Of a stretch of DNA of 64,000 nucleotides, positions 4,234-8,361 are shown piece after piece. Location: the NCBI GenBank assembly GCA_014238065.1, contig JABABU010000056.1, forward strand, positions 1 to 64,000, read 5' to 3'. Position numbers and translations under genes: made by a program. The DNA comes from Actinomycetota bacterium (lineage in GTDB: Bacteria > Actinomycetota > Acidimicrobiia > Acidimicrobiales > Poriferisodalaceae). Under the pieces are notes generated by a model. The model was given only the letters and a program-made list of their open reading frames with translations. It had not been told where the DNA came from and did not search any database. The number at the start of each line of letters is the position of its first letter. Position 1 is the first letter of the stretch.

Positions 4234-5175
4234 GTGGAAGTTATCCGAGACATGGATTGGTGCCCTCGTCCGAACAACGGCACGGTGGTGACAGTTGGCC
4301 AGTACGACGGGGTACACCGTGGTCACAGGGCTGTCATCGCCGAAATGCATCGTATGGCTGCCGAGCGCGGGTGCAAGACGGCAGTGGTCACCTTCGATGC
4401 TCACCCGGCGTCAATCGTTCGCCCGGATTCGGCGCCTCTGCTGTTGACCACGCTGGAGCATAAGCTGGAACTGCTCGCAGAAACAGGCGTCGACTACACG
4501 CTGGTGGTGCGTTTCGACGAGGCGCAGTCGAAGGTTCCGCCGGAAGAGTTCATTCAGTCGGTACTCATCGAATGCCTCAAGGCCAGAGCCGTCACCGTCG
4601 GAGCAGACTTCCATTTCGGCAACCAGCGTCGAGGCAACATCGAGATGCTCAGGTCGATAGGAGAGGCCGAGGGGTACTCCGTCTATGGCCTCCCGCTGGT
4701 GAAGCAACTCGTAGGCAACAGAGGCGTCATCAGCTCGACCGAGGTCCGGGCTTCACTGGCCGATGGCGACATCGACAAGGCCAACCGCCTTCTCGGCCGC
4801 CCATTCGAGGTGCGCAGCATCGTTTCGCCCGGCGATCGACGGGGGAGGACCATCGGATTTCCCACTGCGAACTTGCCGATGGATTCTCAGTACCAGGTGC
4901 CAGTGGACGGCGTGTACGCGGCCTATTACGAACGACCCGATGGCACGATTCACCCCGCGGCTGTGAACATCGGGCGGCGGCCGACGTTCTATGAGTTCGC
5001 CGAGCGGAGCCTCATCGAGGCGCACCTCATCGGGTTCAGAGGCGATCTGTATGACGAGTCGGCCAAGCTGCGCTTCATCAAGCGACTCAGGGGCGAAAGA
5101 AAGTTCGACGGCATCGATTCGCTGCGAACGCAGCTCGCCATCGACATCGAAGACGCAACATCGGCTCTCAGCTAA
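4234..5175 (+). CDS. ribF: Bifunctional riboflavin kinase / FAD synthetase
   Basis: RibF phosphorylates riboflavin to FMN and adenylylates FMN to FAD in the cytoplasm. The protein has 313 residues, as usual for the two-domain bacterial type. The N-terminal adenylyltransferase domain has the nucleotide-binding motif GQYDGVHRGH and later GADFHFG. The C-terminal kinase domain has GRTIGFPTANLP and NIGRRPTF. The frame is open far upstream inside truB; GTG at 4234 was chosen because EVIRD and the domain begin there and a TACTGT hexamer sits at leaderless distance. An ATG six codons later is an alternative. A ribF next to truB and rpsO is typical of bacteria. Confidence 0.95.
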   Translation: MEVIRDMDWCPRPNNGTVVTVGQYDGVHRGHRAVIAEMHRMAAERGCKTAVVTFDAHPASIVRPDSAPLLLTTLEHKLELLAETGVDYTLVVRFDEAQSKVPPEEFIQSVLIECLKARAVTVGADFHFGNQRRGNIEMLRSIGEAEGYSVYGLPLVKQLVGNRGVISSTEVRASLADGDIDKANRLLGRPFEVRSIVSPGDRRGRTIGFPTANLPMDSQYQVPVDGVYAAYYERPDGTIHPAAVNIGRRPTFYEFAERSLIEAHLIGFRGDLYDESAKLRFIKRLRGERKFDGIDSLRTQLAIDIEDATSALS

Positions 5176-5201: not shown

Positions 5202-5243
5202 AGCAAACCAGGAGCACGGGGTGGACCGGGCAACTCGAACTGT

Positions 5244-5413
5244 TAGCCTTAGCCACTGCGTGTGTGGACGCCCGGATTGGTCAAGCGCACGTTCAACAGA
5301 GCCGAACGTTTGTTGCTCTGTGAGAGCAATCCGGGTCAGCCGCCCCGCCTCGCGGCAACCAAGCAAGTCCTCACGGACATGGCACTTACACCAAGTACAG
5401 GTACGCACGACGC
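5244..5413 (+). promoter_or_regulatory. rpsO promoter and structured 5' leader
   Basis: TAGCCT at 5244-5249 is a likely -10 element, giving a leader of about 155 bases before rpsO. The leader contains CCCGGATTG (5271-5279), which pairs perfectly with CAATCCGGG (5327-5335). Within it ACAGAGC (5296-5302) can pair with GCTCTGT (5315-5321), and alternatively TTGCTCT (5313-5319) can pair with AGAGCAA (5323-5329). The second inner hairpin competes with both the first and the outer stem. This arrangement resembles an autoregulatory S15 leader RNA, in which S15 protein binds its own mRNA. The pairing is seen directly; the regulatory role is inferred. Confidence 0.6.
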
Positions 5414-5671
5414 ATGTCAGACAAGTCTTCCACCATCGCGGACAACCGCCTCCACGACGCCGATACCGGGTCGCCAGAAGTGCAGATCGCTCTTCTCAGT
5501 GAGCGCATCGATCACCTCACCGAGCACTTCAAGGTGCACAAGAAGGACCACCACGGTCGCCGAGGGCTCCTGATGCTCGTCGGACGCCGTCGTCGTCTTC
5601 TCGACTATCTCGCCGACAACGACGTCGAGCGCTATCGAGCCATCATCGCAAAACTCGGTCTCAGGCGCTGA
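5414..5671 (+). CDS. rpsO: Small ribosomal subunit protein S15
   Basis: S15 is a primary 16S rRNA-binding protein that organises the central domain of the 30S subunit. The 85-residue product has the normal length and the family signature [15 protein letters not shown], then [19 protein letters not shown] and the C-terminal RRRRLLDYL segment. The ATG has only a weak AGG upstream; initiation may depend on the structured leader. Two strong hairpins cover the stop codon and the bases after it. pnp follows, as in many bacteria, where S15 and PNPase are controlled together. Confidence 0.97.
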
Positions 5672-5675
5672 GACC
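5657..5675 (+). terminator. Hairpin across the rpsO stop codon
   Basis: GGTCTCAG and CTGAGACC form a perfect 8-bp stem with a GCG loop, and the stop codon lies inside the stem. With the next hairpin it probably marks the rpsO 3' end or an RNase processing site between rpsO and pnp. Confidence 0.5.
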
Positions 5676-5676
5676 A

Positions 5677-5699
5677 CGGGCGGTCCAAAGGGCCGCTCG
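5677..5699 (+). terminator. rpsO terminator-like hairpin
   Basis: A 10-bp stem containing two G-U pairs with an AAA loop is followed by TTCCGCGTTCT. It is the best terminator candidate between rpsO and pnp, although the T-run is poor. The rest of the 251-base gap up to pnp is A-rich near pnp and holds no gene that I can support. Confidence 0.55.
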
Positions 5700-5922
5700 T
5701 TCCGCGTTCTGGACCCACGGATGTGGTGCACTGGAATGCCGACCTGCGCTGAACCCCGGTCAGCAGGTCACGACGTCAGGTCGATCATCTGGGTCGAACC
5801 GAGGTCGGGTCATGCATGAACCTCACGTCGGTCAACGATCTCCGCAACAACCAGATCTCCACAAAGAAATACAACACAAACAAATCGGACGGGAAGGCCC
5901 CGTCCAAGAAGGAGTATTCCAA

Positions 5923-8361
5923 ATGGCTGAAGCCATCGTAGTGAGCGGTCCCATCAGTGGGACCGACAAAACCATCTCGTTCGAAACCGGCAAGCTCGCC
6001 GGTCTTGCGAACGGGGCAGTGACCGCCCGTATCGGCGACACACAGATTCTCGTGACGGCCACCGCGTCGAAGCGACCACGTGACGGCGCGGACTTCTTTC
6101 CGCTCACCGTCGACATCGAAGAGCGGATGTATGCCGCTGGTCGAATCCCAGGATCGTTCTTCCGTCGTGAAGGCCGTGCCTCTGAGGACGCAATCCTCAC
6201 CTGCCGCTTGATCGACAGGCCCCTCCGCCCGAACTTCCCGAGCGATTACCGCCACGAGACCCATGTGGTCGGCACCATCCTCGGCATCGACGGCGAGAAC
6301 CAATACGACGTGATCGCGTTGAACGGCGCATCGGCAGCCCTCTGGGTGTCCGGCATTCCGTTTGAGTCGCCAGTTGCTGCTGTTCGTATTGCGTACAGCG
6401 TCGAAGGGACCTGGATCCCTTTCCCGACCTATGAAGAGGGCGAAGGGTCGACTTTCGAGATGGTCGTTGCCGGTCGTCAGCTCGACAACGGCGACATCGC
6501 CGTCATGATGGTCGAGGCCGGTGGCACAGAGCGTGCCTTCGAGTTCTACGAAGACGGCGCACCGAAGGTGACCGAGGACGTCCTCGCAGATGGCCTCGAG
6601 GCCTGCAAGGTGTGGATTGACGAGGTCATCGAACTGCAGAAGTCACTTCGTCTTGCCGTCGGCGAGATCACGCCGCTCGACTATGTGTCCTCCGTTGACT
6701 ATTCAGAGGAGATCATCGGCCGGGTCCGTGAGGTAGGCGGCGAACGTCTCGCCGAGGTCATGGCGATCTCGGACAAGGCTAATCGCGACGACGCCCAGGC
6801 CGAGGCAACCGCTGCGATTTCAGCTGAACTCGCCGAAGAGTTCGCCGACACCGACGGTGCCGGCAAACAGATCTCGGCAGCAGTCCGCAGCGTCGTAAAG
6901 GAAACCGTCCGCAAGCGCATCGCCGAAGACGGCTTCCGGATCGACGGACGGGCACTCGACGAGGTTCGCCCGCTGTCGGCTGAGGTCGCCCTTCTTCCCA
7001 CCGCTCACGGCTCAGGCCTGTTCCAGCGTGGAGAGACCCAGGCGCTCAACGTCACCACGCTCGGCATGTCGCGGATGGAACAAATCATCGACACGTTGAA
7101 CCCGAACAATCGCAAGCGTTACATGCATCACTACAACTTCCCGCCGTTCTCGACGGGTGAGGCTGGATTCATGCGTGGCCCGAAGCGCCGCGAGATCGGC
7201 CACGGTGCACTCGCCGAGCGTGCCCTTCTTCCGGTCATTCCGAACAAGGAAGAGTTCCCCTACACGCTCCGTCTCGTGTCCGACGTGCTGTCGTCAAATG
7301 GCTCGACCTCGATGGCATCGGTCTGCTCGTCGTCACTGTCGCTCATGGATGCAGGCGTGCCCATCAAGGGCCCAGTTGCAGGTATCGCGATGGGCCTGGT
7401 GTACGCCGAAGGCAAGTACGTCACCCTCACCGACATCCTCGGTGCCGAGGACGCGTTCGGCGATATGGACTTCAAGGTCGCAGGAACCGAAGACGCCATC
7501 ACCGCGCTGCAACTCGACACCAAGATCGAAGGCATCCCCGCCGACGTTCTCACACAGGCCCTTCAGCAGGCCCGTGCAGCACGCCTTCAAATCCTCGAGG
7601 TCATGAAGGGCGCCATCGATGGCCCCCGTGACGACGTTGGCGCCACCGCACCGAAGATCGTCAGCTTTCAGATCCCGATCGACAAGATCGGTGAGGTCAT
7701 CGGTCCACGCGGCAAGGTGATCAACCAGATCCAGGAAGAGACCGGCGCTGATGTCAACGTCGACGACGACGGCACTGTCGGTGTCGTCAGCATCGGTTCG
7801 ACCGATCGCGACGCGGTGATCGAAGCCGAGCGTCAGATCCGTCTCATCATCAATCCGCCGACCGCCAACGTCGGGGAGAACTACGAAGGCCGCGTGGTGA
7901 ACATCACCAAGTTCGGCGCATTCGTCAACATTCTTCCTGGCACCGACGGCTTGTTGCACATCTCGAAGATCGGTGGCGGCAAGCGCATCGACAAGGTCGA
8001 AGACGTGCTCAGCCTCGGTGACACCGTTGAGGTCCACGTCGACGACATCGACCCGAACGGCAAGCTCTCGCTGTCGCTCGGTCAACCGCTCAGCGCGCCA
8101 GCCGCGTCAGACAGCGATGATGCTGCAAAGCCATCCGGTGATGGCGGAGACGATGAGGAGGCCCAGGGTGCAGAGTCGCCGGCGCGCGAGCCACGTTCGT
8201 CGGCGCCACGACGTTCGAGCAACCGTGGCCTGGGTGATGCAGAGGTCGTGTCTTTCGAGGGCGAGTTCGACAAGATCGCCGAAGCCGAATACGGCGAACT
8301 CGGTCCCTCTGCTGAAGAGGCGCGGAGTCGCGGTCGCGGGCGTCGTCGTTCACGCCGCTAG
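5923..8361 (+). CDS. pnp: Polyribonucleotide nucleotidyltransferase (PNPase)
   Basis: PNPase degrades RNA 3' to 5' by phosphorolysis and can add 3' tails; actinobacterial members were also described as guanosine pentaphosphate synthetases. The 812-residue protein has two RNase PH domains (about residues 10-145 and 330-550) separated by a helical domain. A KH domain follows with IGEVIGPRGKVINQI, then an S1 domain beginning GENYEGRVVNITKFGAFV. The C-terminus is acidic and then Arg-rich, ending RGRGRRRSRR, probably an RNA-binding tail. The ATG was chosen because AAGAAGGAG stands about 8 bases upstream; the frame also extends upstream without homology. dapB starts 9 bases after the stop. Confidence 0.96.
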   Translation: MAEAIVVSGPISGTDKTISFETGKLAGLANGAVTARIGDTQILVTATASKRPRDGADFFPLTVDIEERMYAAGRIPGSFFRREGRASEDAILTCRLIDRPLRPNFPSDYRHETHVVGTILGIDGENQYDVIALNGASAALWVSGIPFESPVAAVRIAYSVEGTWIPFPTYEEGEGSTFEMVVAGRQLDNGDIAVMMVEAGGTERAFEFYEDGAPKVTEDVLADGLEACKVWIDEVIELQKSLRLAVGEITPLDYVSSVDYSEEIIGRVREVGGERLAEVMAISDKANRDDAQAEATAAISAELAEEFADTDGAGKQISAAVRSVVKETVRKRIAEDGFRIDGRALDEVRPLSAEVALLPTAHGSGLFQRGETQALNVTTLGMSRMEQIIDTLNPNNRKRYMHHYNFPPFSTGEAGFMRGPKRREIGHGALAERALLPVIPNKEEFPYTLRLVSDVLSSNGSTSMASVCSSSLSLMDAGVPIKGPVAGIAMGLVYAEGKYVTLTDILGAEDAFGDMDFKVAGTEDAITALQLDTKIEGIPADVLTQALQQARAARLQILEVMKGAIDGPRDDVGATAPKIVSFQIPIDKIGEVIGPRGKVINQIQEETGADVNVDDDGTVGVVSIGSTDRDAVIEAERQIRLIINPPTANVGENYEGRVVNITKFGAFVNILPGTDGLLHISKIGGGKRIDKVEDVLSLGDTVEVHVDDIDPNGKLSLSLGQPLSAPAASDSDDAAKPSGDGGDDEEAQGAESPAREPRSSAPRRSSNRGLGDAEVVSFEGEFDKIAEAEYGELGPSAEEARSRGRGRRRSRR

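Follow-up and report, generated by a model that had tools for sequence, protein, structure and literature searches.

A candidate S15-responsive pseudoknot in the rpsO leader of an uncultured member of the Acidimicrobiales

The 5′ leader of rpsO in the genome of an uncultured actinobacterium of the order Acidimicrobiales is most likely an S15-responsive autoregulatory RNA built around an H-type pseudoknot, a reading to which we give about an even chance. The support for the pseudoknot itself is moderate. The leader is most likely a variant of the kind of rpsO pseudoknot known from other actinobacteria and from E. coli, and the suggestion that it forms a class of its own is not shown. The better-supported novelty is found in relatives rather than in this leader, namely a nested leader type designated here R1. 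S15 is the textbook example of a single protein under the control of many unrelated RNA folds.

The rpsO locus and the stems of its leader

The host genome is 3.9 Mb in size and contains just one S15 gene. In the window, which is the whole 64-kb stretch of DNA that was analysed, the genes are arranged on the plus strand in the order ribF (ending at 5175), the rpsO 5′ leader, rpsO and pnp. The original prediction was right to assign the leader to rpsO, since the encoded protein matches PF00312 with an E-value of 2e-35 and its start codon, AUG at 5414, lines up with the MSDK, MADK and MPDK starts of relatives. An extended -10 promoter element of the form TGnTAnnnT precedes every rpsO gene of the family, 81–164 nt before the AUG and as the sole match within 230 nt; no -35 consensus was identified upstream of the rpsO gene of the window. 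Transcription of rpsO probably starts at about position 5256, a few bases 5′ of the first helix. The reading of this stretch as an rpsO leader is borne out; it has its own conserved promoter, and structured rpsO leaders recur in the family and in the order. The features of the locus are as follows.

5241–5249, plus strand: extended -10 promoter element, TGTTAGCCT
5258–5265, plus strand: 5′ arm of helix P1, GCGUGUGU, forming eight pairs with 5285–5292, three of which are G.U or U.G
5270–5279, plus strand: 5′ arm of helix P2, GCCCGGAUUG, within the P1 loop, forming ten pairs with 5327–5336
5285–5292, plus strand: 3′ arm of P1, GCGCACGU, paired with 5258–5265
5296–5302, plus strand: 5′ arm of hairpin H2 (inner stem 1 of the original prediction), in the linker between P1 and the 3′ arm of P2, recognised from relatives and shuffles
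5313–5329, plus strand: inner stem 2 (5313–5319 with 5323–5329), present in the window as an alternative to H2 and the 3′ end of P2
5315–5321, plus strand: 3′ arm of H2, GCUCUGU, paired with 5296–5302
5327–5336, plus strand: 3′ arm of P2, CAAUCCGGGU, paired with 5270–5279
5339–5356, plus strand: hairpin P3, GCCGC-CCCGCCUC-GCGGC, with the arm sequences of the second hairpin of model R2
5367–5378, plus strand: small hairpin GUCC-UCAC-GGAC, read from the sequence and present in predicted folds
5399–5402, plus strand: AGGU, a possible weak Shine-Dalgarno sequence 11 nt before the AUG, judged from the sequence
5414–5671, plus strand: rpsO, ribosomal protein uS15, 85 aa

The three stems named in the original prediction are exact. 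The 9-bp outer stem joins 5271–5279 (CCCGGATTG) to 5327–5335 (CAATCCGGG) by perfect pairing, inner stem 1 joins ACAGAGC (5296–5302) to GCTCTGT (5315–5321), and inner stem 2 joins TTGCTCT (5313–5319) to AGAGCAA (5323–5329). The competition claimed among them is also real, inner stem 2 having bases in common with both inner stem 1 and the outer stem. By themselves these stems exceed chance only modestly: in the window, perfect 9-bp stems enclosing up to 60 nt occur at about 0.48 per kb (31 distinct), and the folding energy of the leader has a z of -1.55, with 19 of 200 shuffles equally stable.

No terminator-like site, i.e. a GC-rich stem followed by a U run as expected of a transcription attenuator, was found on the plus strand between 5160 and 5480. 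At 5379–5381 the leader contains an out-of-frame ATG; the codons after it spell ALTPS, which resembles the usual MALT start of S15, and the frame that it opens overlaps and runs into rpsO. Going by the frame and by the relatives, this resemblance is probably a coincidence. Downstream of rpsO, positions 5672–5923 contain a long pnp leader, the second half of which is A-rich, with ATGGCTGAAGCC near 5924.

Evidence for the pseudoknot and its conservation

Helix P1, which includes G.U pairs, was absent from the original prediction and crosses the outer stem. The 5′ strand of the outer stem lies inside the P1 loop and its 3′ strand lies past P1; therefore P1 and P2 together would constitute an H-type pseudoknot. 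The outer stem, proposed originally as a closing stem, is thus more likely one helix of this pseudoknot, P2, which consists of the outer stem and one additional G.U pair. Hairpin H2, for which 4 of 500 shuffles were as good or better, fits in the 34-nt connecting strand, and P1, P2 and H2 can coexist without overlapping bases.

A pseudoknot search in which P1 had to lie within the first 25 nt downstream of the promoter was performed over 134 rpsO leaders, with 150 dinucleotide shuffles each. The leader of the window scored -30.5 kcal/mol, and none of its 150 shuffles was as good, a result obtained for two of the 134 leaders, the other being the mycobacterial leader L233. Outside the mycobacteria and the group of the window, few clear cases were found; low counts were also obtained for two relatives, L003 and L012 (1 and 4 of 150). 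The mycobacterial leaders L231–L234, from genomes whose S15 is identical to that of M. smegmatis at 65–71 of 73 residues, served as the positive control, and three of the four show the topology seen in the window, with 0–2 of 150 shuffles as good. In a stricter test, shuffles were as good in 5 of 1000 cases for the window, and in 12, 14, 42 and 76 of 1000 for the relatives L012, L003, L002 and L006, respectively. In a harder control, 3% of arbitrary 161-nt windows in the 64-kb region reached the pseudoknot score of the leader. When no penalty is charged for pseudoknotting, the nested minimum free energy fold and the pseudoknot are of roughly equal stability.

P2 is likely, not proven, because its pairing, given P1, is better than with shuffled downstream sequence in the window (p = 0.012) and close to this in L012 (p about 0.06), is not significant in L002, L003 and L006, and in this comparison gives a Fisher p of 0.05, with the cognate pairing of loop and downstream sequence ranking fifth of 120 permutations. 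The databases searched contained five comparable leaders in all, two of which are near-related to each other.

Conservation of the helices was assessed with an alignment built without regard to structure. P1 retains 7 of 8 pairs in both L002 and L006, and in the more distant L012 and L003 its CGUG/CACG core is retained. H2 retains 6 of 7 pairs in L006 and 4 of 7 in L002, several of them being altered on both sides. Of the covariation looked for in the originally proposed stems, inner stem 1 thus shows compensatory changes in two relatives, while inner stem 2, the proposed switch stem, is retained in none of the four; nor is P3 retained at the aligned positions. The P2 sequences of L003 and L012 differ from that of the window, being GGGGUG/CACCCC and GGGGCG/CGCCCC, respectively.

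Other rpsO leaders and S15 contact residues in the order

The genera g5–g10 of the family, with the exception of g6, have a two-hairpin leader, R2, comprising a covarying promoter-proximal hairpin and a GCCGC/GCGGC hairpin. It is located upstream of rpsO in L004–L023, L025, L064 and L066, except L006 and L012. Both a promoter-proximal hairpin and a GCCGC/GCGGC hairpin are also present in the window, but the P1 loop of R2 is 7 nt long and R2 forms no convincing pseudoknot. The best match of the R2 model in the window covers P3 alone and scores -1.2 bits, which is not significant. For these sister genera, pairings of the P2 type involving the short P1 loop were inspected by eye and rejected as inconsistent. 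In genus g6 (L024, L026–L030, L061–L063, L065 and L067) the start of rpsO is shifted to MSAKRSSP, and its leader is of another type with a GGCUGG/CCGGCC hairpin. In another family of the order (L035, L038 and L049), a promoter-proximal hairpin GCGCC(U/A)...(A/U)GGCGC with GCGACCG in its loop is located upstream of rpsO.

R1, found in other Acidimicrobiales, is composed of a stem GGCUUC...GAGGCC (stem A) with an inner CGC/GCG helix, followed directly by a hairpin GGGUC-N-ACCC (hairpin B) close to the start codon; examples are L146:1429–1483, L053:1380–1457 and L077:315–369 on the minus strand. Among 22 sequences, 7 of 16 pairs are altered on both sides, and all five measures of covariation were reached by 0–3 of 500 shuffles. 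A model search extended the set to 64 sequences, in which 103 doubly changed cells were counted against 24.5 expected, in an alignment fitted to the model. In a strict whole-genome search covering 198 genomes of the order, 36 had matches, at 37 places; 31 of these are directly upstream of the S15 gene, one is elsewhere and five have no listed rpsO for comparison. In a sample of the phylum, the sole match falls within the Acidimicrobiales. The R1 members L053 and L137 match no Rfam family, and a literature search found no description of R1, which thus appears undescribed. Its stem A often has a 5′-CU-3′/5′-GG-3′ step like the GU/GC motif of rRNA recognised by S15; examined by eye, P1, P2, H2 and P3 of the window leader contain no such step in that orientation.

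In E. coli, the S15 residues that contact the U-G/C-G motif include Ser51, His41 and Asp48 (PMC4684408; PMC8470358). This serine is present in E. coli and mycobacteria, whereas the S15 of the window has glycine at the position, within the codons for DHHGRRG at 5546–5566. The same replacement is found in L002, L006 and L012 but not in L003, and glycine at this position is uncommon, occurring at 14 of 250 loci in a count that ignores relatedness. Most genomes carrying R1 retain the serine. The position of Arg57 of E. coli is occupied by methionine in the window, and arginine is absent there in mycobacteria as well. The association of Gly51 with the leader may be regarded as a lead.

Proposed regulation and comparison with known rpsO leaders

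In the proposed mechanism, P1 would fold first, immediately after transcription start; folding predictions for the nascent RNA give it as the initial structure up to about position 5330. The P1 loop would later pair with 5327–5336 to form P2, P1 staying closed, with H2 accommodated in the connecting strand and P3 formed next. At saturation of ribosomal RNA, unbound S15 would attach to the pseudoknot and stabilise it, and translation of rpsO would be reduced as in mycobacteria and E. coli. The formation of the pseudoknot, the binding of S15 and repression upon binding are each inferred. The weak point of this model is the distance of 78 nt between the end of P2 (5336) and the AUG.

Several other readings of the leader have to be weighed against the S15-responsive pseudoknot. 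The leader could adopt a nested fold, with the 9-bp stem closing alternative inner hairpins and with about 5255–5266 paired to about 5402–5416 so that the AUG is hidden, and S15 could bind this fold. It corresponds to the minimum free energy structure, and for L002 and L006 the pairing between 5′ end and start region is also better than in shuffled sequence (p 0.01–0.03). In the window, however, the same pairing is no better than in shuffles (p 0.5), inner stem 2 is not conserved, and P1, which forms first during transcription, competes with the nested fold; on these grounds we consider it unlikely. It is rather unlikely that the leader is structured without responding to S15, its hairpins serving to stabilise the transcript or its pairing being due to chance in GC-rich sequence. 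The low folding z-value, the genomic windows that match the pseudoknot score and the weak comparative support for P2 are all consistent with such a leader, but P1 and H2 are retained in relatives despite sequence changes, structure and covariation are found in rpsO leaders throughout the order, and S15 feedback is widespread in bacteria (PMC4137082, PMC8470358).

The leader could also be a decayed member of R1, the outer stem representing stem A and GGGUCAG (5333–5339) a remnant of hairpin B. In keeping with this, CCGGGUCAG (5331–5339) comes directly after the stem, an arrangement also seen in R1, but the R1 model gives only 4.5 bits on the window leader and has no matches in the genome of the window or in the 37 loci of the family, which makes such an origin very unlikely. 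The S15-responsive pseudoknot is the preferred reading. A bolder form of it, in which the leader would represent an S15-responsive RNA type of its own, found in a few Acidimicrobiales genera, with a hairpin in the linker of a pseudoknot remote from the AUG, co-evolved with the loss of Ser51 and existing beside the unrelated and undescribed R1, is doubtful. If it were true, one order would contain several types of rpsO leader, one of them associated with an altered S15 contact residue, so that the co-evolution of protein and leader would be testable inside a single order. The gain from the leader of the window itself is modest, as it would add a further pseudoknot to a kind already known, on thin comparative evidence, and be a small, local version of the S15 pseudoknot.

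Searches of Rfam families, including the E. coli-type S15 leaders, gave no match at the gathering score in the window, and at a relaxed threshold the window leader had just one spurious weak match (E 4); the mycobacterial rpsO leaders are likewise without a matching family. R1 and the window leader belong to the same gene in the same order and share a stem followed by GGGUC, but R1 is a nested two-hairpin fold 9–47 nt before the AUG, and the window leader does not match its model.

The pseudoknot of actinobacterial and mycobacterial rpsO leaders is already known (Slinger 2014, PMC4137082; Aseev 2021, PMC8470358). In M. smegmatis, a mutation that breaks it leads to loss of S15 repression and to lower expression, and the leaders of both M. 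smegmatis and E. coli involve a choice between two hairpins and a pseudoknot, which in E. coli takes in the start of the coding sequence (Aseev 2021, PMC8470358). The window leader resembles its mycobacterial counterparts in having an extended -10 promoter and a promoter-proximal hairpin whose loop would pair with a downstream strand, in front of the same gene in the same phylum, and the topology was recovered in both by the same search. There is no evident sequence similarity between them, and the mycobacterial linker is roughly 10–14 nt long, while that of the window is 34 nt and contains an extra hairpin. P2 of the mycobacterial leaders L232–L234 ends right before the Shine-Dalgarno sequence, unlike the more remote P2 of the window. 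Like the E. coli operator, the window leader would choose between a fold of several hairpins and a pseudoknot, and it too has U.G pairs beside G-C pairs, here in P1; the E. coli pseudoknot reaches into the coding sequence, whereas the candidate pseudoknot of the window lies well upstream of it.
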